Shown here: in pieces, positions 23,504 through 33,209 of the stretch | How positions within the stretch are numbered: the stretch's first letter is position 1 | Layout of the letters: each line of letters starts with the position of its first letter | Origin: Candidatus Thorarchaeota archaeon | GTDB taxonomy: Archaea; Asgardarchaeota; Thorarchaeia; Thorarchaeales; Thorarchaeaceae | Direction of reading: 5' to 3' | Assembly (NCBI GenBank): GCA_019057475.1 | Contig: DXJO01000002.1 | Location: forward strand, 1 to 33,503 | DNA: 33,503 bases | Made by a program: the position numbers and the translations under genes | Notes under the pieces: generated by a model | The model's database searches: none | Seen by the model: only the letters and a program-made list of their open reading frames with translations | What the model was told of the DNA's origin: nothing

Positions 23504-23683
23504 GAATGAACACCACCTTTGCGAAGTCATTTGCCGGATTTTAACCCAATCTCAACCGGCAAAATGGAGCCATTGCTTCTGAATGTCAGGTTGATTTAAG
23601 TGCAACAACCTTCTCGCACTGAGAATTAAGAGATATAATAGTGCACTGCTCAGGCAGAACTGCGCGTAGCTAAAGTGATATTC

Positions 23684-25825
23684 ATGGGTATCGACAAACA
23701 GAAGATTCCGAAGACGGATGTTCCAATCATAAGGAGCCAGTTCAAACAGGCAGCTGCGGACGCGGAAACTGCTCTTAAGGGCAAGTCGATACGCAAAGGA
23801 GAAGGCCCATTCGGTGAGCCGAGAGAGTTATTGGCATTCGCCATTCTCGAAGCGTCGGGTGAGCTAAGCCAGACCACTTCAACTGCTCAGTCTATCGCAG
23901 ACAGAATGATGGAAGTGTTCAGGGATGCTTCGCCCGAAATCTCAGTCGCAGATTATTTGGAAAGCGCCACTCTGTGTTTATACGGCTTCATCCTGGAAAC
24001 TTACAATGAAGAAGATTTCAGATACTTCTACAGATACTCCCTATCTAAGATTCGAAACCATGCCTCTATCGAGAGCTGGTTGAGAAAAGCCATTGTGTTC
24101 TATGGCCTCTGCAAGAATTTGAGGGGCCGCGCCCTTCTCGATGAATTCAGGCATTGGATACGGTACCTAGGCGCGTCGGCATGCAATCACAATCTGCTGG
24201 TTGAAGTATGTGCTGCTTTCGGAGAAGACATTCGGAGCGTGGTTGCTGAACCAGATTTTCGATTTGTCGATTCTCTACAAAGGCATCCTCAGTACTTGGA
24301 GGAGGCAATGGAGGGAAGATCATACCTGGATGTGCGAAATGCAACGAAGAACTGGCTTCAAGACGTGATGTCAGAAAAGTTGCTACGATTATACCAGAAG
24401 CGGATGTACAAGCTTGCTCAGGACAATATCAAGCAGGACGCAGACGTTGCAGAAGCCTACGATGCTGTAAGGTCCACGTTCAAGAAGGCGGGATTCAGAA
24501 GCGATAGAAAGGGTGTGTTTCCAGTCCAACTGCAGAAACTAAGCACCCCACCTCCAGCGGAAGCGGTGGACCCGGTTGTCTTTGAGATGATACCACAGAA
24601 GCTCCGTGTGAACCTTCTGCCATCAGTCGCATACTCGACTAAGACCAAGACTGTGGAGATAATCTTCCTCGGAGGGCCTCGTATTGGTCGAAGTGGCATT
24701 TTGCTGAAGACAGATACTGGAGGTGTTTTGCTGGACTACGGATTATCTGTAGCAAACCAGCGCATACCTGAATGGGTGCCGGAACTGGAGATGATTGACA
24801 CTGTCTTGATCAGTCATGCCCATCTGGACCATGTCGGAGGGCTGCCAGTTCTCTATGACAATTACGATGGCAAGTGGTGTTCCACCGATGTGACCGGGGC
24901 GATTGCTATGTCGCTTCTTGAAGATGCACTCAAGGTGGGTACCCCGCTACCTCCAAGAAGAAGGGACCGATGGGATAGCATCTCCAAGTTCCGACAAAGA
25001 AACATAGACAAGATAACTAAGAATCACGTACGCCTAGAAGTTGGAAAAAGCAGCGAAGTAGGACCCGGAATTGTTGCCACGCCCATAGATGCAAGCCACA
25101 TACCTGGAAGTGTGAGTTTCCTCATTGATATCGAGGGTGTCAAGATCCTGTATACTGGTGACTTCAACACAGATCAGTCGATCCTCTTTCCCGGAGCGAA
25201 TCTTCCGACTGATAATGACGTCACTATCTTCGACGGTACGTATTGGGGCAGGCAGGATTTCAACAGAGCAGAAGTGACAGCACATGTTGCCGAGATAATC
25301 GATAGCCATGGCCCTGTTATTATTCCAAGCTTCGCAGTGGGGCGTTCCCAAGAAATGCTCATGATCTTGGAATCAATAGGAGTGACTAAGCGCAAGAATG
25401 TAATTGTGGCAGGGCTCGCTGAGAAAATAACTAAGCTTGTGGGCGTCAAGGGTAATTGGCAAGGAATGAAGAAAAACAAAGTAGCGCTGGAGAAAGATGA
25501 CATCCTCGTAGCAGGCGGCGGAATGATGAGCGGAGGACTGGCCAGATATCATTTCAAGGAACATAGCAAGAATCCTGAAGCTGCGATTATCCTCTGCGGC
25601 TACCTAGCACCTAGAACTCCTGGGTGGAACCTTCTAAATGGTTTCGAACCGCACAAGTGCGACGTTGAGTATGCACGTATAAGTGCGCACTCTTCTGCAT
25701 CTCATCTGCAGCAGTGGGTTAAATCCTGTGGCGGCAAGAAGATTATGGTGCACACGCCGTCGAAGAAAGTTCCGAGAGGCATTATGATGCCCGATTACAA
25801 GCAAAAGATAATACTCTCAACGTAG
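23684..25825 (+). CDS. Beta-CASP-like metallo-hydrolase with long unrecognised N-terminus
   Basis: Encodes about 713 residues. The C-terminal part (about 325-713) is a metallo-beta-lactamase domain with SHAHLDHVGG (about 377-386), ASHIPGSV, LYTGDFN, then a beta-CASP-like insert (DGTYWGRQDF, PSFAVGRSQEML, RTPGW) and the final SAHSSASHLQQW. This is the pattern of archaeal RNA-processing nucleases (aCPSF, RNase J-like). Some DNA-repair or unrelated hydrolases share it. The first about 310 residues are helical and not recognised; no KH domains are seen, unlike aCPSF1. The start is ATG at 23684 after GTGAT; an in-frame GTG at 23675 is inside that site. It is convergent with the GTPase gene, 22 bases away. 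Confidence 0.8.
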   Translation: MGIDKQKIPKTDVPIIRSQFKQAAADAETALKGKSIRKGEGPFGEPRELLAFAILEASGELSQTTSTAQSIADRMMEVFRDASPEISVADYLESATLCLYGFILETYNEEDFRYFYRYSLSKIRNHASIESWLRKAIVFYGLCKNLRGRALLDEFRHWIRYLGASACNHNLLVEVCAAFGEDIRSVVAEPDFRFVDSLQRHPQYLEEAMEGRSYLDVRNATKNWLQDVMSEKLLRLYQKRMYKLAQDNIKQDADVAEAYDAVRSTFKKAGFRSDRKGVFPVQLQKLSTPPPAEAVDPVVFEMIPQKLRVNLLPSVAYSTKTKTVEIIFLGGPRIGRSGILLKTDTGGVLLDYGLSVANQRIPEWVPELEMIDTVLISHAHLDHVGGLPVLYDNYDGKWCSTDVTGAIAMSLLEDALKVGTPLPPRRRDRWDSISKFRQRNIDKITKNHVRLEVGKSSEVGPGIVATPIDASHIPGSVSFLIDIEGVKILYTGDFNTDQSILFPGANLPTDNDVTIFDGTYWGRQDFNRAEVTAHVAEIIDSHGPVIIPSFAVGRSQEMLMILESIGVTKRKNVIVAGLAEKITKLVGVKGNWQGMKKNKVALEKDDILVAGGGMMSGGLARYHFKEHSKNPEAAIILCGYLAPRTPGWNLLNGFEPHKCDVEYARISAHSSASHLQQWVKSCGGKKIMVHTPSKKVPRGIMMPDYKQKIILST

Positions 25826-25847: not shown

Positions 25848-27773
25848 TCACGCAACGACCTCAAGGACTGCATCCAACACTAGTTTCTGTGCGACAAACT
25901 TCATTGCAGGAAGACTAACCCTCAACGATCGGACAATATCCTCAAGAGGTTTAGTACCATCACAAAGATCTACGAACTTAACGACGACCTCGCCATATGC
26001 CTTCCGAGTTTCCGCGCCTACATCTCCTATCTTCCTCAAATGGCTATCGTCCTCAATCGCAACCTTAAAATCAATCCAGCCATACTGCTCAAGAATCTGA
26101 AGACATCCGAGAACTTGATCTCGCGGGAGGTCTAGACTGCGGACCAGTCCACCTACAGTATCGCTTCCTTCTATGGCCGACTTGACAGCTACGACAGCGG
26201 CCCCAACATCGCGATTCTCGAAAGGCAGTGCTTTACCGGTTTCTCGCGACTTGACGATGTAGTCCAGACTGACAGGTTTCAATGGAACCTTTGAAAGAAC
26301 GGTGAATACAGAAGGTTCGAAGATAATCGTATTTCCATCCCAATTTGTCCATACATCTGAGTACATCATTTCAACGTCAGCCAGCAATGAAGCCATAGTC
26401 TTCCTGTACTCATCCTCGTGACTGCTATTGGTGATTACTAGTGCCAGCACGAAATGATTTGATTTCTCGACCATGACTATATTGTCCTCGTGTTCAATGT
26501 TCTCAAGGGCATCAGTCTTGCTGTCGGCGCCCCCAGAGTCTCCGTCGATTCCGCTGAAAGAATCCAGCGCAGAGATTAAGGAAGTAACCGCATTAACATC
26601 AATGAGCTCGGTAGAGTAGTCCAGATGATAGGAGGACTCAAACATGCCCTCCCTTTGCACAATAAGGAGCAAGTGAAGAATGCGAGCGGGGTCAGAAACC
26701 ACGGAAACCGCCTCTGCATCGACCTCTGTGTCTATTGATGATGTGGTTTCAGTTTCGACCACTGTTGTTGTGACTGTGGTAGAGGTGGCTGCGCCCTCTT
26801 GAACCGCCTCATAGGGAACCGTTTCATAGCCACCCTCCGTGGCATCAATCCTAGTCTGAGCGGCTTCAACTTCTTCAGTCCGCCGCCGCACAGTGATCAT
26901 CTCGCTCACCGGCAAGTCAGGTAACTGAACGCCCACCGTTTTTGCGGACACTTCAAGCATAAGGCGAATGAATTCCTCGCGCCGGGCCTTGTCAGTGGCG
27001 ACCATTTGGAAAGTCGGTGCGCCAAGTAGTCGTTTGATCTTATCACTCTGCATTGATTCAGGAAGGTCCTGTTTATTCGCGATGATAAATAACGGAACCG
27101 CAGGTGCCTCTTTCTTGATATTTCGAAGAAGCGTCTTGGTCTGCATCACGTTCCTGAAACTAGAGTCTGTGATGAGGAAGATGACATCGGTGCCCTGGAA
27201 ATAAAACGCCCATAGGTCCTGAAAAACGGCCTGACCTGCGAAATCCCACACAGTCACGAGAAAAGTTCCGAACTGTATGGTTTCAGACGAGTCCACAGCG
27301 ACGTTGATTGTGGGTGTATAGCCCCCTGGTGCGGGTTCCCGCCCAAATAGAAGTCTCAGCAGCGTGCTCTTGCCGACACCACCGGAACCCACGAATGAAA
27401 TCTTGAAGCGTGTGAAGATGAGCTCGCCAAGAATATCCTGCAAATTGTCCTTGACATACCCGATGCTCTGACCGCGAAGGGCCGTTTCCATTCGCGATGC
27501 ACCCTCTCGTGCCTTTTCCTTGATTCTTCGTTCCTCATCTTTGCCGTCCGTGACAAGCATGAGAATGAGGTCCTCACCGACCATGTGGTGGAAGACCTTG
27601 TGGTCACCAGCAAAGATAGGTGTGTCTTCTGAAAGACCCTCAGTAACCAGCAGGTCATTGAATCCGTGAATGAACTCAACGATTTCGCTCTCACCGAAGT
27701 CTATTTTCCAGAAACGTGTTGAGGTCACAATGGCGCCTGTGTCTTTTTCAATCAAAAGGACATTGTGAATCAT
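25848..27773 (-). CDS. Longin-GTPase-longin-winged-helix protein (Asgard ESP)
   Basis: Encodes 641 residues. Residues about 1-95 form a longin/roadblock-like domain (VLLIEKDTGAIV). Residues about 120-285 are a Ras/Arf-like GTPase: P-loop GSGGVGKST (129-137), switch I Thr in GYTPTIN (151-157), WDFAGQ (176-181), NKQD (233-236) and SAK (276-278). The Gln181 position matches the catalytic Gln of Arf/Ras proteins. A Thr/Glu-rich linker (300-360) follows. A second longin-like domain (about 364-500) and two helical, winged-helix-like units (about 525-575 and 595-641) end it. There is no lipidation or membrane segment. Fused longin-GTPase proteins are known for Asgard archaea, but this full order I do not know as described. 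The paralogous gene lies 100 bases upstream on the same strand. Confidence 0.82.
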   Translation of the reverse strand: MIHNVLLIEKDTGAIVTSTRFWKIDFGESEIVEFIHGFNDLLVTEGLSEDTPIFAGDHKVFHHMVGEDLILMLVTDGKDEERRIKEKAREGASRMETALRGQSIGYVKDNLQDILGELIFTRFKISFVGSGGVGKSTLLRLLFGREPAPGGYTPTINVAVDSSETIQFGTFLVTVWDFAGQAVFQDLWAFYFQGTDVIFLITDSSFRNVMQTKTLLRNIKKEAPAVPLFIIANKQDLPESMQSDKIKRLLGAPTFQMVATDKARREEFIRLMLEVSAKTVGVQLPDLPVSEMITVRRRTEEVEAAQTRIDATEGGYETVPYEAVQEGAATSTTVTTTVVETETTSSIDTEVDAEAVSVVSDPARILHLLLIVQREGMFESSYHLDYSTELIDVNAVTSLISALDSFSGIDGDSGGADSKTDALENIEHEDNIVMVEKSNHFVLALVITNSSHEDEYRKTMASLLADVEMMYSDVWTNWDGNTIIFEPSVFTVLSKVPLKPVSLDYIVKSRETGKALPFENRDVGAAVVAVKSAIEGSDTVGGLVRSLDLPRDQVLGCLQILEQYGWIDFKVAIEDDSHLRKIGDVGAETRKAYGEVVVKFVDLCDGTKPLEDIVRSLRVSLPAMKFVAQKLVLDAVLEVVA

Positions 27774-27873
27774 TTATCATCGGCCTCATTCATTCAGCAC
27801 GGGTCTACAGCATTTGTTGGTCTTTAGATGCTTCGCTTACAAGGGTCCTAGGAATACCAACAGCAAATGAAGA

Positions 27874-29589
27874 TTACGGGGGGGTAATGTTCGCGAATTT
27901 CAGCTCGATATAACCCCTGCGGTACAGCTCAGAAAATACCGTAATCAGAATCGCTTCATCGATGCCTACCTGTGATGCGATACTCTCAATGCTGCGAGTA
28001 CCATCAGCGAATCCAAGAATCAGCTCGGAGTGTGAGTACAGGCTTAGCACTTGGGCATCTGGTTTCTGGATGACTTCTGGAATATCACTTGCGATAATCA
28101 GCAACTTCGTGTCAATTGCGCCCATTCTCTTTAGGTAGTGCAGCGCGCCAAGAACCATTCCCGGGCCTTTTCCGATCACTAGTTGCGAAAGCGGTGTTTG
28201 TCCATCGATACTCTTCCAGACTGTCTGCAAGAATTTGCTCATAAAGTCAGACCGAAACCAAAGCCAATCAGGCTCCTCTATCCGAGTTGGACAAGTTCTG
28301 TCAGACCAATTCTCAGGGGGAAGAGTTGCAAGAAGCTTAATCATGAAAGGACCATAGGAATACAGGTCTCTTGAGTCCTCAGTTTCCTCAGGCATTTCAT
28401 CGAAGTAGATGTCTGGCAGGATTGAGAAGCGTGACCGCACCAATTCCGGATCTTCTCTGTCGCCGGTTACCAGCGTGAAAATAAGGCTCTCGCGCTCCAG
28501 TATTGCGTATTTCAGCTCCCCAGCCTGAAGCAAGGATGTTTCAGTACGGCCGCTGTCATCCAAATCGAATTGAGAGATTGCTGCAACGACATTGGGAGCT
28601 CGCCTTAGATACTCAGAATCCGATTCGTAGAAATAGGAAAAGTGTGGGGTTCCTGTCATCTTGTCTATAACAAAGAATGCTTGATGCCCAATGTCAGAAT
28701 CTTCTTCCACGGAAGCAGGAGGGCCTTCTTCTGTGCCCAGATGATCAACCACCCATGTTTCTCGAGCCAGTTCAGGATGCATATCCGTGAATCCAGCCAT
28801 AGCCAAGGCAGAGAGCAACAGGTCTGTAGGGTTACTAGAAACTGAATCGCAAAGATCGATGTCTAGAAGGAGTTCTAATCTGCGGGCGAACTCAAGCTCT
28901 TCATCGGATCCTGGAACAACTAGGATTGTTGCCTCGGAGTTAGCCTTAATCCTATCGATGACCTTACCCAGATCGAGGGCTGAAGGCAATGGTCGAGCAA
29001 TCACGAATACGAAGATATCCACCTGTTTCAGATAGTCGGGCCACTTCGCCTTGGGAACTTCTGCCGTTGTATGCCGCATCGCGACGACATCATACGGCCC
29101 AATTGAAACCGGTTTTGCGTAGCGAGATGATTTGTCACCCAGGCGTGTTATGAGCATTGCCACCGCTGAGCCCGACTTGTCTTCAGGAGTAGGCGAAGAA
29201 GCTGAGAAGAAGCAGATAGATAGACGCTTCTTCAGACTACCGGCAACTATGTCATTGAACGATTGTCTAGCAGCTCTTATCGATATTTCCGATGCTAGAA
29301 TTTTGAATGCTTCATCCAGCTCTTGCATGGCAGCGATGTCGTCCGCTGAGATTTCAGATGAACTGGTGAATCCTGCAATCAAAGTCACCTTATCAACTTG
29401 AACGAGGCAAACATTCCAGGCATCCACTTCAAGCAGTATATACTTGTCAAGGGTTTCTACCTTAGCCAACTCGAAGAATTTCTGAATAACAGACTGAAGA
29501 ATTTCCTCACCCGGGGCCTTCTTGGAAAAGGAGATGGAAGCTAGCACCTTTGTGCCACGAAGGTCATACAACGCCGCAGCTTCAATCAT
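27874..29589 (-). CDS. Longin-pseudoGTPase-longin-winged-helix paralogue
   Basis: Encodes 571 residues with the same order as its downstream neighbour: longin-like (1-105), GTPase-like (about 120-270), longin-like (about 300-415), then two winged-helix-like units (about 445-500 and 510-565). The middle domain keeps the fold pattern (RLSICFFSA, VDIFVFVIARPLP, ATILVVPGSDEE) at the places of the P-loop strand, the post-switch strand and the NKxD strand. It lacks GxxxxGKS, DxxG and NKxD, so it should not hydrolyse GTP. It is thus a likely pseudo-GTPase partner of the 25848-27773 protein. The ATG at 29589 follows GGAG and AGGA purine runs. Its promoter holds the palindrome at 29635-29647. Confidence 0.75.
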   Translation of the reverse strand: MIEAAALYDLRGTKVLASISFSKKAPGEEILQSVIQKFFELAKVETLDKYILLEVDAWNVCLVQVDKVTLIAGFTSSSEISADDIAAMQELDEAFKILASEISIRAARQSFNDIVAGSLKKRLSICFFSASSPTPEDKSGSAVAMLITRLGDKSSRYAKPVSIGPYDVVAMRHTTAEVPKAKWPDYLKQVDIFVFVIARPLPSALDLGKVIDRIKANSEATILVVPGSDEELEFARRLELLLDIDLCDSVSSNPTDLLLSALAMAGFTDMHPELARETWVVDHLGTEEGPPASVEEDSDIGHQAFFVIDKMTGTPHFSYFYESDSEYLRRAPNVVAAISQFDLDDSGRTETSLLQAGELKYAILERESLIFTLVTGDREDPELVRSRFSILPDIYFDEMPEETEDSRDLYSYGPFMIKLLATLPPENWSDRTCPTRIEEPDWLWFRSDFMSKFLQTVWKSIDGQTPLSQLVIGKGPGMVLGALHYLKRMGAIDTKLLIIASDIPEVIQKPDAQVLSLYSHSELILGFADGTRSIESIASQVGIDEAILITVFSELYRRGYIELKFANITPP

Positions 29590-29669: not shown

Positions 29670-30902
29670 TCAGTTTAGCCTGCCACGCCTTCTGAGGAAC
29701 TCATCCATCTTCAGCAGGCCCCTTAAGAGCCGCTGGTAATCTGAATTAAGCCAGTAGTTCTCGTAAGTACACTCCTCAGACCCTCCGCCTGAAGGAATCA
29801 TCGGCAGGTCTGAGATGGCTTCTGACACATTAATTGGGGGCGGATAAGCGGCTGATGTCATCCTTGCGTCCTCTCGCTGACGACCTCTTGTGACGGAGGA
29901 AAATGAAGGAAGTGGCGATTCCAATTTCCTGCCAGTTCTGTTAGCGAGGACAACCAAGCGCCTACGTCTCTGAGGAACACCGTATTGTTCTGCATTCAAC
30001 TGAAAACAATGACAACTGTATCCAAATGATTCCAGAAACTCGATTGTCTTGCGTAGTACCTTGCCATTCTGCATGTGCCGCATTCCAGGAACATTCTCAA
30101 TTACGGCATAATCTGGCATGAACTCACTAACAATCTCCAGCATGGGAACAATCAAGCTGTTTCTCATGTCAGCGGGGTCTCGCTTTCCCGCCGTTGAGAA
30201 GCCTTGACACGGAGGGCCCCCTGTCACTATTCGAAGTGTTCGCCCTCCAAGCACACCCTCAATCGACTGCTTTAAAGATTCATACTGAACTTCGTCAGCG
30301 ATGTCAGCTTGAACAACAGAAGCATCTGAATGATTGTGTTTCAGAGTCTTGCACATGCTGGTGTTGATATCTGATGCCAGGACTACGCGGTGTCCAGCCT
30401 GCGAAAGGCCTTCTGATATGCCTCCGGCCCCGGCAAATAGATCAACAGCTAGACCTGCCTTAATCGTTTCTCCAATTGCTCTTGCCATTAACGGCGGCAC
30501 AGCGTTGCCAATCTGTTTCCGCATTGAGGCCGCACTGCCGAAGAATCTGTACTCGTCTGGAAACGATTGAAGTCGTGCCGCTTCTCGATGGCTTATCAAG
30601 CGGTCTTGATCAGGGTGAATGAATGTGCCATTTCCTGGGCGATTATAGTAGGTGTTGACTGTGTAGCTTGGATGGTCGCCTCTAAGACGCCCATAGTATG
30701 TAGTCCGTCCTCCAGATGCCCTGATTTGAGTAAGGCGCGAAGACTTTCGTACGGTTTCAAGGGGTATGTCCTTCCAGTTCCCTCCAGGAGGGACTGAGCG
30801 AACCATCTCCATGTCAAGGTCACTTAGAGAAGAACAGACATGGTTGTACAGGAGTCCAGATCCCTTCAAGCCTGATGCAAGCTCAACAGTCGATAACAAC
30901 AT
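29670..30902 (-). CDS. Circularly permuted cytosine-5 DNA methyltransferase
   Basis: Encodes about 410 residues. It would transfer a methyl group from S-adenosylmethionine to C5 of cytosine. Motif order (counted from an in-frame TTG three codons upstream) is unusual: IX (HREAARLQSFPDE, 108-120) and X (QIGNAVPP, 133-140) come first, then I (DLFAGAGG, 157-164), IV with Cys235 (GGPPCQGFS), VI (ENVPG, 272-276) and VIII (QYGVPQRRRRL, 309-319). The break falls within the target-recognition region: its first half is now the C-terminus (LNSDYQRLLRG) and its second half the N-terminus (VPPGGNWKDIP). Known permuted relatives include M.BssHII. The ATG at 30902 is used; neither it nor the TTG at 30911 has a clear ribosome site. 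The adenine methyltransferase gene ends 73 bases upstream. Confidence 0.88.
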   Translation of the reverse strand: MLLSTVELASGLKGSGLLYNHVCSSLSDLDMEMVRSVPPGGNWKDIPLETVRKSSRLTQIRASGGRTTYYGRLRGDHPSYTVNTYYNRPGNGTFIHPDQDRLISHREAARLQSFPDEYRFFGSAASMRKQIGNAVPPLMARAIGETIKAGLAVDLFAGAGGISEGLSQAGHRVVLASDINTSMCKTLKHNHSDASVVQADIADEVQYESLKQSIEGVLGGRTLRIVTGGPPCQGFSTAGKRDPADMRNSLIVPMLEIVSEFMPDYAVIENVPGMRHMQNGKVLRKTIEFLESFGYSCHCFQLNAEQYGVPQRRRRLVVLANRTGRKLESPLPSFSSVTRGRQREDARMTSAAYPPPINVSEAISDLPMIPSGGGSEECTYENYWLNSDYQRLLRGLLKMDEFLRRRGRLN

Positions 30903-30974
30903 CCAACTCAACTAACTGCGCTAATCAATTCATCTTTGAAAACCTTGATAATACAAGCTTGGGGCGATGTATAA

Positions 30975-33209
30975 CTAGGCTATCTCGCTCATTGCAGTCA
31001 TTGTTTCACGAACTTCATCTTGGTTCGCACCCCTTGAGGTCATGACAAACCTCGCTTCATTCAGTCCCAAGCCGTACAAGAGAAACACACGCGCTTCAAC
31101 GCTGGAACTTGGAGAGCTTCCTTTCGATAACATATCCTGTACATCATTGACTATCTCGCCAACGAGATCAGTAATGCGTTGATTCTGAGAATGAGGATCT
31201 GTGATAGGCAGAGATGCCAACTCACGGTTGGAAACATGGTTGTTCGCGTTGCTCAGATCGAACCTCCAGTTAAGGAGATCCGAGTTAAGGATGCCAAGCA
31301 TGTAGGAGAGTAGCCACTCATCTTTCGAGGGGCCCACTGCAACATAATTGCATGAGTTTGCGAGTACGGTCTTAGGTGGGACCATGGCGAATTTGAGACG
31401 CCAGCGTTGTGCACGGTTTGAAACCTGTTGGCAGGCTATCCGCGAATCGAAGATGTGAGGACTTCTCGCAGAGGAACCCAGTGATTTGACAAAGGACGAC
31501 AGTCCAACGCTCTCAGACTCACGTTTGATTGGTCGCAGTGTGTATCGTGAGATGTCAGCTCCTCTGACAAGGCGACTACCCTTCTTGCCTAGTTTGATGT
31601 GTTCCTTGCTCAGCGTGAGGTCAAGCTCACCCCTCCGATTCTGAAGCCAAGGGAGTGAGCCGAGGGTCGGATTCTCGTGAAGCGTTTTCAGTATTCGCCA
31701 TCCTGTTTGATTCACTCTTGGTATCACCATGGATTCACCCATGACCTGTTCGATATCGTCGACTCTGAGTTTCAACCGGGTCTTTGTCTGAGCATCGTGA
31801 ACGTCGCTCAATCCGAAGCTTGCACTCAGACTCTCTGTCGAACTGCACGTTTCAACAGTCATCACACAAACGGATTGAGTAACACCGGGAAACAATCTTG
31901 CACGCTCGGTGTACTCATCTATGCGCAATAAGCAGTGCTTGCTCAATAGATGCCGCCTGAGTAGCCCCGCAGAAATATCTCCAAGGAGTGTGGAGGGAAC
32001 GACGACCCCAAGGCGGCCTCCATGACGGGCCAATCGTAAGGCTTGCTCAATGAATAGACGATAAGTGTTGATCGTGTACCGATTGCCTAGAGCGTACTCT
32101 CCTGAGTTCCTGAAGTACGCTATGTCTTCTCGAAGGTCAACCTTGTAATCCTCAAAGTCCTGCAAGTGAATAGTCCGATCGCCTGACTGAAGGCGCTCTC
32201 TCAAAAACTCGGCCAAATTCGGTTTCAGCCTCTCATAAGGCGGATTCATCACAATGAAATCAAAGCCCCTGGCGCCCCGAGCGAGTATGTCGGGAAACTC
32301 TGATTGCCATTCAAAGGGACACCTAGAGGCGGAATCTTCAAAGAAGCTCGTGTGGTTTGCAGACCCATCCCACCCATTCATCATCACCAATGAGTTGCCT
32401 TGCTTCAATGTTCGCCCCAAGGTGGAGGAGGTCGCAGATGCAGGGTCTTGACCTAGAAGGAGTGCAATGGAAATGCCTGCAATCTCAAGCGCGGCTTTAT
32501 CAATATCTACTCCGAATAGATTCTCGCGCAGTACTCCCGGCAGATTAATAGAAGTCAGACCAACCTTCTTGGCAGCCGCCTCAATTGTTGATCTTCTCCT
32601 TCTGAACGCTTCAATTGCTGATAAGAGAAATGCTCCAGGCCCACATGCGGGGTCGAGTACTTTCAATGAGAGGAATTGCTCAAACTCCTCCAAATCGCCT
32701 TTCTGAATACCTGCAAGTCTTCGATCCAACTCGGCTCCAATAGTCATCTCGCAAATGTAATCCGACACGGTAAGAGGTGTGTAGATTGCACCTAAAGCTC
32801 TCCGAGATGGATGCCCTCTGCGGCCTGCGGGCAGCGAGAAACAGCCGTAGGAGTGTATCTGAGCAAGAAGCTCAGCTAAGTTTCGAGGAGTGGCGGACTT
32901 GACTTTGGCGGCGTAAGCATCGCCGTTCCAAATCTCAAGAGCTGACCGGGCCGTTTCAATTGCATCTCTCGGCGATACTCCATATTTCTCAGCTTCATGC
33001 GAAAGATGAGAGAGTAATGGGACAGGCTTTCTGATGATCTCGTCAGCTTGAGAATCAGTGCACTGTGCAACAGTCCAAGTCAAGGCGGCGATTCTGGCGG
33101 CCTCTGCGGGGGTTCGCATGTCCACTAAGGGTTTGGATGCAATGCCAATTATCTTGGAGTGCAGTGATTTGACAATGCTCCAGGCCAAACCACCGTTTCC
33201 TCTCAACAA
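30975..33209 (-). CDS. N6-adenine DNA methyltransferase (type II/IIG-like, no nuclease seen)
   Basis: Encodes about 744 residues. It would methylate adenine N6 in a DNA site. Motif X-like ALGAIYTP (138-145), motif I DPACGPGAFLL (186-196) and the catalytic NPPY (322-325) appear in the gamma-class order. The C-terminal part (about 480-730) with RLVRGADISRY and LANSCNYVAVG looks like a TaqI/Eco57I-type target-recognition domain. The N-terminal 130 residues show no PD-ExK nuclease motif, so it is a methyltransferase only. It resembles in outline the adenine enzymes of Alw26I/Eco31I/Esp3I-type systems, which pair with cytosine enzymes. The start is a TTG at 33209 next to a second TTG, weakly supported. 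The true start may be a little downstream. Confidence 0.85.
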   Translation of the reverse strand: MLRGNGGLAWSIVKSLHSKIIGIASKPLVDMRTPAEAARIAALTWTVAQCTDSQADEIIRKPVPLLSHLSHEAEKYGVSPRDAIETARSALEIWNGDAYAAKVKSATPRNLAELLAQIHSYGCFSLPAGRRGHPSRRALGAIYTPLTVSDYICEMTIGAELDRRLAGIQKGDLEEFEQFLSLKVLDPACGPGAFLLSAIEAFRRRRSTIEAAAKKVGLTSINLPGVLRENLFGVDIDKAALEIAGISIALLLGQDPASATSSTLGRTLKQGNSLVMMNGWDGSANHTSFFEDSASRCPFEWQSEFPDILARGARGFDFIVMNPPYERLKPNLAEFLRERLQSGDRTIHLQDFEDYKVDLREDIAYFRNSGEYALGNRYTINTYRLFIEQALRLARHGGRLGVVVPSTLLGDISAGLLRRHLLSKHCLLRIDEYTERARLFPGVTQSVCVMTVETCSSTESLSASFGLSDVHDAQTKTRLKLRVDDIEQVMGESMVIPRVNQTGWRILKTLHENPTLGSLPWLQNRRGELDLTLSKEHIKLGKKGSRLVRGADISRYTLRPIKRESESVGLSSFVKSLGSSARSPHIFDSRIACQQVSNRAQRWRLKFAMVPPKTVLANSCNYVAVGPSKDEWLLSYMLGILNSDLLNWRFDLSNANNHVSNRELASLPITDPHSQNQRITDLVGEIVNDVQDMLSKGSSPSSSVEARVFLLYGLGLNEARFVMTSRGANQDEVRETMTAMSEIA

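Follow-up and report, generated by a model that had tools for sequence, protein, structure and literature searches.

The Rag/Gtr GTPases (RagA-RagC, Gtr1-Gtr2) are paired paralogues with a longin/roadblock fold after the GTPase domain, and MK-D1 possesses an operon pair of Rag-like GTPases with a heterodimer predicted by AlphaFold2 (PMC10933270). NPRL2 and NPRL3, of the GATOR1 and SEAC complexes, form a paralogous longin pair with winged helices in the C-terminal lobe and act on Rag GTPases; Arg78 of NPRL2 is a longin arginine finger with GTPase-activating protein (GAP) activity (PMC8534245). In Asgard archaea, longin-GTPase fusions are known, as are GTPases flanked by a longin and a roadblock domain in one chain (PMC10933270), and "NPRL2-like longin domain" has been used before as an annotation category (PMC9834061). 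Here we describe two adjacent genes, P1 and P2, on a 33,503-nucleotide stretch of DNA (contig DXJO01000002.1 of assembly GCA_019057475.1, hereafter the window). The host is a member of Candidatus Thorarchaeota, and the sequence relatives of these genes are mostly labeled Candidatus Thorarchaeota, with a few records labeled Lokiarchaeota or plain archaeon. The two genes encode diverged paralogues of one four-part protein: longin, GTPase, longin and two winged helices.

P1 and P2 resemble Rag/Gtr and the MK-D1 pair in being paralogous paired GTPases with a longin/roadblock type of fold after the GTPase domain. They recall switch proteins with which human cells sense nutrients. Unlike in Rag/Gtr, however, this fold is a longin rather than a roadblock, an extra longin is found at the N-terminus and winged helices at the C-terminus, one partner (P2) appears to lack catalytic activity, and the similarity in sequence is to Arf. 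The longin-winged-helix arms recall those of NPRL2/NPRL3 but are fused to the GTPase itself. P1 shares with Asgard longin-GTPase and longin-GTPase-roadblock proteins a longin placed before an Arf/Rag-like GTPase, yet these proteins as described in the literature searched present neither a tail of a longin and two winged helices nor an active/dead pair of the P1-P2 form. Mon1-Ccz1 and Fuzzy-Inturned, multi-longin guanine nucleotide exchange factors (GEFs), are likewise paired multi-longin chains; to our knowledge, those chains combine their longins with neither an intact GTPase domain nor a winged-helix tail of the P1/P2 type. In the searchable literature, which leaves out most subscription journals and all preprints, we found no report of a fused active/dead pair of this kind or of its operon with two DNA methyltransferases, and no paper on a pseudoGTPase in Asgard archaea. 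Our results lead us to favor, with a probability of roughly 55%, a Rag/NPRL-like heterodimeric switch in which a dead P2 scaffolds a live P1 and which is co-expressed with a solitary pair of DNA-modification enzymes.

Two paralogues with an intact and a degenerate GTPase domain

The two minus-strand genes were confirmed exactly where the initial annotation had placed them (Table 1), with 100 bases between them. Family alignments comprised 26 orthologues of P2 and 29 of P1, and hhalign aligned the two family profiles end to end over 556 columns (probability 99). Domain by domain, the first longins matched each other at 94%, the GTPase domains at 90% and the tandem winged helices at 98%, and all off-diagonal pairs, which serve as a control, remained at or below 3.4%. 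The second longins of P1 and P2, though in register, did not match significantly (1.1%, hhalign), and the identity of the second longin of P2 therefore rests on its AlphaFold2 model and on the fold search. The models (mean predicted local distance difference test, pLDDT, of 83 for P2 and 69 for P1) present the longin order b-b-a-b-b-b-a-a (b, strand; a, helix) in both longins of P1 and in the first longin of P2. A slightly irregular, closely similar order with lower local confidence was obtained for the second longin of P2, a Ras-like order for its GTPase domain, and two winged helices for the C-terminus of both proteins. The GTPase domain of P1 was modeled poorly, probably because of a shallow alignment; its identity is nevertheless secure at the level of sequence. 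The shared four-part order proposed by the initial annotation is thus borne out by the end-to-end profile alignment, the diagonal-only domain matches and the predicted folds, and the longin-like and Ras-like folds that P2 might have lacked are present in its model.

Profile searches (Pfam, NCBIfam) identified P1 as a small GTPase (Arf, 2.6e-18; Roc, 3e-16; Ras, 2e-13). The motifs GSGGVGKS, WDFAGQ and NKQD are found at residues 129, 176 and 233 of the window's protein, and G1, G3 and G4 are kept in all 15 orthologues checked, in agreement with the earlier reading that P1 has every G motif. T155 (switch I) and Q181 (the catalytic glutamine) are invariant in 29 orthologues, and the mean pairwise identity of the domain across genera reaches 91%. 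P1 therefore carries G1, G3 and G4 in a Ras-like domain, as expected of a small GTPase, whereas P2 does not. No significant family match was detected for P2 in Pfam or NCBIfam, and P2 or its C-terminal half yielded only weak matches to Pfam, NCBIfam and PADLOC. None of the 26 P2 orthologues presents GxxxxGK[ST], DxxG at the G3 position or NKxD at the G4 position. The loss of the P-loop lysine, DxxG and NKxD noted earlier for P2 thus extends to the whole family (26/26), with the correction that the sites are not blank: VPGSD at the G4 position and LCDSVS at the G5 position are strongly conserved. The base-binding edge of P2 therefore appears to be still under constraint, which may reflect a structural role or another ligand. 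Mean identity within P2 is 55% for the second longin, 32% for the GTPase domain and 26% for the first longin, and the second longin is thus the best conserved of the three, as expected of an interface.

We searched 228 genomes of the phylum, 47 of which belong to the window's family (counts were tallied by hand from tables), and the P1-P2 pair is limited to this one family of Thorarchaeota. P2 was found in 37 genomes, all from the family, a P1 orthologue in 39, and both genes in 36 of the 47. The two genes share a contig in 33 genomes and are adjacent, on the same strand and with P2 upstream in every one of them (33/33); in the remaining three, a contig end falls between them. P2 occurs without P1 only in G022, at a contig end, and G028 presents only a fragment of P1 on a fragmentary contig. 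In G027, the first residues of P1 are missing, as are the last ones of the N6-adenine DNA methyltransferase of the operon, 400 kb away; as each is cut inside the gene, we rejected this genome as one lacking P2, and its layout looks like a rearrangement or an assembly fault. Co-conservation and synteny of the pair are therefore clear, but a genome with a single gene does occur once: G031 possesses an intact P1 with a different neighbor and no P2.

This last genome bears on the alternative that P1 suffices by itself as a homodimeric longin-GTPase, with P2 as a superfluous duplicate that decays slowly and is held in place by linkage. The low identity of the first longin and GTPase domain of P2 (26-32%) is also compatible with decay. 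However, in most loci free of contig ends, in 13 genera, the P2 reading frame runs uninterrupted for almost all of its length, and P2 presents invariant residues along its length, a second longin at 55% identity and conserved motifs at the G4 and G5 positions. A decaying copy would not be expected to remain open and adjacent to P1 in 33 genomes, and we consider this alternative improbable.

Relatives and predicted mechanism of the pair

The fold search with P2 returned Rag/Gtr complexes on top and also Npr2/3 complexes, Mon1-Ccz1 and Fuzzy (E-values of 1e-7 to 1e-5); with P1, GATOR1 and SEAC entries came on top, followed by adaptor protein (AP) longins, Rag and others. The output consists of entry titles, and the reading of a match as an NPRL2/NPRL3 or Rag chain was made from chain length and complex. 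By sequence, the best solved natural relative of the P2 profile is the winged helix of NPRL2, a weak match (E 0.013). The Pfam model HTH_NPRL3 was matched by 4 of 23 relatives consisting of a stand-alone longin and two winged helices (best 1.8e-4), and Fuz_longin_1 by the C-termini, at the second longin, of 6 of 20 P2 proteins (best 8e-4). The NPRL2/NPRL3 arrangement, in which paired paralogues each have winged helices after a longin, is also found in the C-terminal halves of the two proteins. The comparison with longin and GTPase regulators such as Mon1-Ccz1 and the signal recognition particle (SRP) receptor made in the initial annotation is therefore partly retained: Mon1-Ccz1 is among the fold matches, but Rag and NPRL2/3 are closer than either of these.

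The nearest solved relatives of P1 by sequence are Arf1-type proteins. Arf is also its best profile, yet a longin domain rather than an amphipathic helix precedes the GTPase. No roadblock was found after the GTPase domain, where the predicted order is that of a longin, with no helix before strand 1, and P2 has no match to the Gtr1_RagA profile. Some 20 other sequences in the window's own genome (3.34 Mb) match P1, and most of these matches concern the GTPase domain; one of them is a longin-GTPase paralogue with 39% identity.

We infer that P1 and P2 form a heterodimer with a GTP cycle in which P2 plays a regulatory role. The two proteins would be ancient duplicates that work like a Rag/Gtr heterodimer joined to NPRL2/NPRL3-like longin-winged-helix arms. 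P1 would bind and hydrolyze GTP, and P2 would no longer bind nucleotide normally and would serve as a permanent scaffold or regulator. The partners would be joined most likely through their second longin domains and winged helices; the longin arms of either protein may set the nucleotide state of P1 in a GAP- or GEF-like manner, and the highly conserved GTPase face of P1 may recruit effectors. The longin domains carry conserved arginines at R82 in P1 and R385 in P2. Our analysis also suggests that P1 and P2 are fused versions of a recurrent team of a longin-GTPase and a longin-winged-helix protein.

Several observations weigh against the Rag/NPRL-like heterodimer. Whole-chain template modeling scores (TM-scores) in the fold searches are low (0.12-0.21, query-normalized), the C-terminal profile of P1 has no match among solved structures, and neither P1 nor P2 has a significant sequence match to the NPRL family, the NPRL2/3 signals being weak. 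P1 scores 66.5 bits against Arf and 22.4 against Gtr1_RagA (cut-off 22.0) and is thus closer to Arf than to Rag by sequence. The second longins of P1 and P2 are both acidic, which gives no hint of simple charge complementarity, and P1 stands without P2 in G031.

It had further been suggested that the winged helices might allow the pair to connect membranes with nucleic acid. Such folds are indeed predicted, and some members weakly match Pfam models of DNA-binding winged helices. However, the domains are neutral or acidic (mean net charge of about 0 to -3), and the helices presumed to serve in recognition (-0.9 to +1.3) are likewise not basic. Moreover, NPRL2, which provides the nearest solved kin of the P2 winged helix, is a subunit of a protein complex, and its C-terminal lobe mediates contacts with proteins (PMC9646525). 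The suggestion is not supported by these results, and we regard it as very unlikely.

Related genes were observed elsewhere in the window's genome. Tandem stand-alone proteins of 275 and 290 aa, each with a longin and two winged helices, are encoded on contig C12 (L127:10576-12386). They share homology with the C-terminal half of both P1 and P2, occur as a pair in most genomes of the family, and are possibly an NPRL2/NPRL3-like pair. On contig C45 (L125:6997-10654), a longin-GTPase with a long acidic tail lies beside a 379-aa longin-winged-helix-like protein. The domains of this partner were read by eye, and it has no Pfam match; it is 81-87% identical across genera, and the two genes remain neighbors in different genera and, less strictly, in a second family. 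The longin-winged-helix-like partner of the C31 GTPase presented no significant match to the stand-alone pair.

The methyltransferase operon and neighboring genes

P2 and P1 are the last genes of a co-directional series consisting of an N6-adenine DNA methyltransferase, a C5 DNA methyltransferase, P2 and P1. This operon-like layout was absent from the initial annotation. In the window and in most of the relatives' regions examined, the usual gaps are short (0-222 bases, with one of 1206). The C5 gene lies directly upstream of P2 in 30 of 34 loci with visible flanks, usually preceded by the N6 gene; the exceptions are G016, G026, G025 (N6 gene only) and G033, for which no C5 match was found within 518 bases of flank. 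In G016 and G026, which represent one genus, P2 and P1 persist without the methyltransferases. Synteny extends to the NadA and HAD genes on the opposite side, such that the conservation of the block is not specific, and with the survival of P2-P1 in that genus this leaves a joint function of the operon unproven. P1 and P2 are probably co-expressed with the methyltransferase pair.

The same combination of N6 and circularly permuted C5 genes lies side by side in the Alw26I/Eco31I/Esp3I type IIS systems, where circular permutation is known in M.Alw26I, M2.Eco31I and M.Esp3I (PMC5944983). Both enzymes match a single PADLOC profile, seemingly a fusion of the two, and the pair has the composition of the Alw26I type, although the N6 model score is under the curated cut-off. 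Unlike in these systems, the locus lacks an endonuclease, and P2 and P1 come next instead. The cognate HNH endonuclease (PF09665) was not found in the window's genome and passed the cut-off in only 2 of the 228 genomes (G031 and G035); in G031, it adjoins a separate methyltransferase pair. Because PF09665 is missing from nearly all relatives and lies elsewhere in G031, the pair linked to P2-P1 is restriction-less. This pair (29670-33209) is retained across most genera of the Thorarchaeota family. G031, which lacks P2, presents an apparently complete Alw26I-type restriction-modification set with its endonuclease (L124:3597-8771).

It is conceivable that all four genes belong to a single system linked to DNA modification, with the GTPase pair standing in for the missing restriction enzyme; the pair would sense methylation or foreign DNA and act through GTP turnover, either in defense or in the control of chromosomes. 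The co-directional block with its C5 gene next to P2, the rarity of the endonuclease, the nearly equal evolutionary rates of P2 and the N6 enzyme (mean distances of 0.63 and 0.62) and the beta-CASP nuclease-like gene adjoining P1 are consistent with this possibility. We nonetheless consider it unlikely: G016 and G026 keep P2-P1 without the methyltransferases and G031 keeps P1 on its own, the functionally unrelated NadA and HAD genes are syntenic too, P1 and P2 contain no nuclease or recognized DNA-binding family and their winged helices are not basic, and neither protein has a meaningful match to defense families. A more specific version, in which a Rag/NPRL-type pair replaced the type IIS restriction enzyme and couples GTP switching to DNA methylation state, seems more doubtful still.

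The beta-CASP nuclease-like protein possesses an uncharacterized N-terminus of 320 aa and is convergent with P1 in nearly all relatives; its scores against the aCPSF1 and type VII Cas14 models lie well under the cut-offs. No RNA families or tRNAs were found within the window.

Table 1. Positions of P1, P2, their domains and the neighboring genes in the window
Feature	Positions	Strand	Size or residues	Basis or remarks
P1, longin-GTPase-linker-longin-two winged helices	25848..27773	-	641 aa	Intact GTPase motifs
P1 longin 1	27420..27773	-	aa 1-118	AlphaFold2, b2-a-b3-a2 order; 94% match with P2 longin 1
P1 GTPase domain	26925..27413	-	aa 121-283	Pfam Arf/Roc/Ras; conservation
P1 P-loop GSGGVGKST	27363..27389	-	aa 129-137	Motif reading and orthologue check
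P1 acidic low-complexity linker	26688..26903	-	aa 291-362	29% identity; AlphaFold2, conservation, charge
P1 longin 2 and the helix after it	26274..26687	-	aa 363-500	Acidic; AlphaFold2; homology to stand-alone longin-winged-helix proteins
P1 tandem winged helices	25851..26219	-	aa 519-641	AlphaFold2; 98% match with P2 winged helices
P2, same domain order	27874..29589	-	571 aa	Degenerate GTPase domain
P2 longin 1	29236..29589	-	aa 1-118	Fast evolving, 26% identity; AlphaFold2, conservation, domain profile comparison
P2 pseudo-GTPase domain	28786..29235	-	aa 119-268	No P-loop, DxxG or NKxD; VPGSD/LCDSVS conserved at G4/G5 positions
P2 longin 2	28390..28689	-	aa 301-400	55% identity, best conserved part of P2
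P2 tandem winged helices	27895..28254	-	aa 446-565
Circularly permuted C5 DNA methyltransferase	29670..30911	-		Motifs IX-X before I-VIII
N6-adenine DNA methyltransferase, Alw26I/Eco31I/Esp3I-like	30975..33209	-		TIGR02987, 5e-77, under curated cut-off
beta-CASP metallo-beta-lactamase nuclease-like protein	23675..25825	+		Conserved convergent neighbor of P1

Genes of this kind are not usually tied to a restriction-less methyltransferase pair, and the lasting link of P1 and P2 to one calls for an explanation. If the heterodimer proposed here is real, Asgard archaea would also possess the combination of an active GTPase, a fixed partner built on longins and GATOR1-like winged-helix arms, and the Asgard form would unite switch and regulator in one chain. 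P1 and P2 thus constitute testable proteins for the origin of the Rag, NPRL and multi-longin systems.

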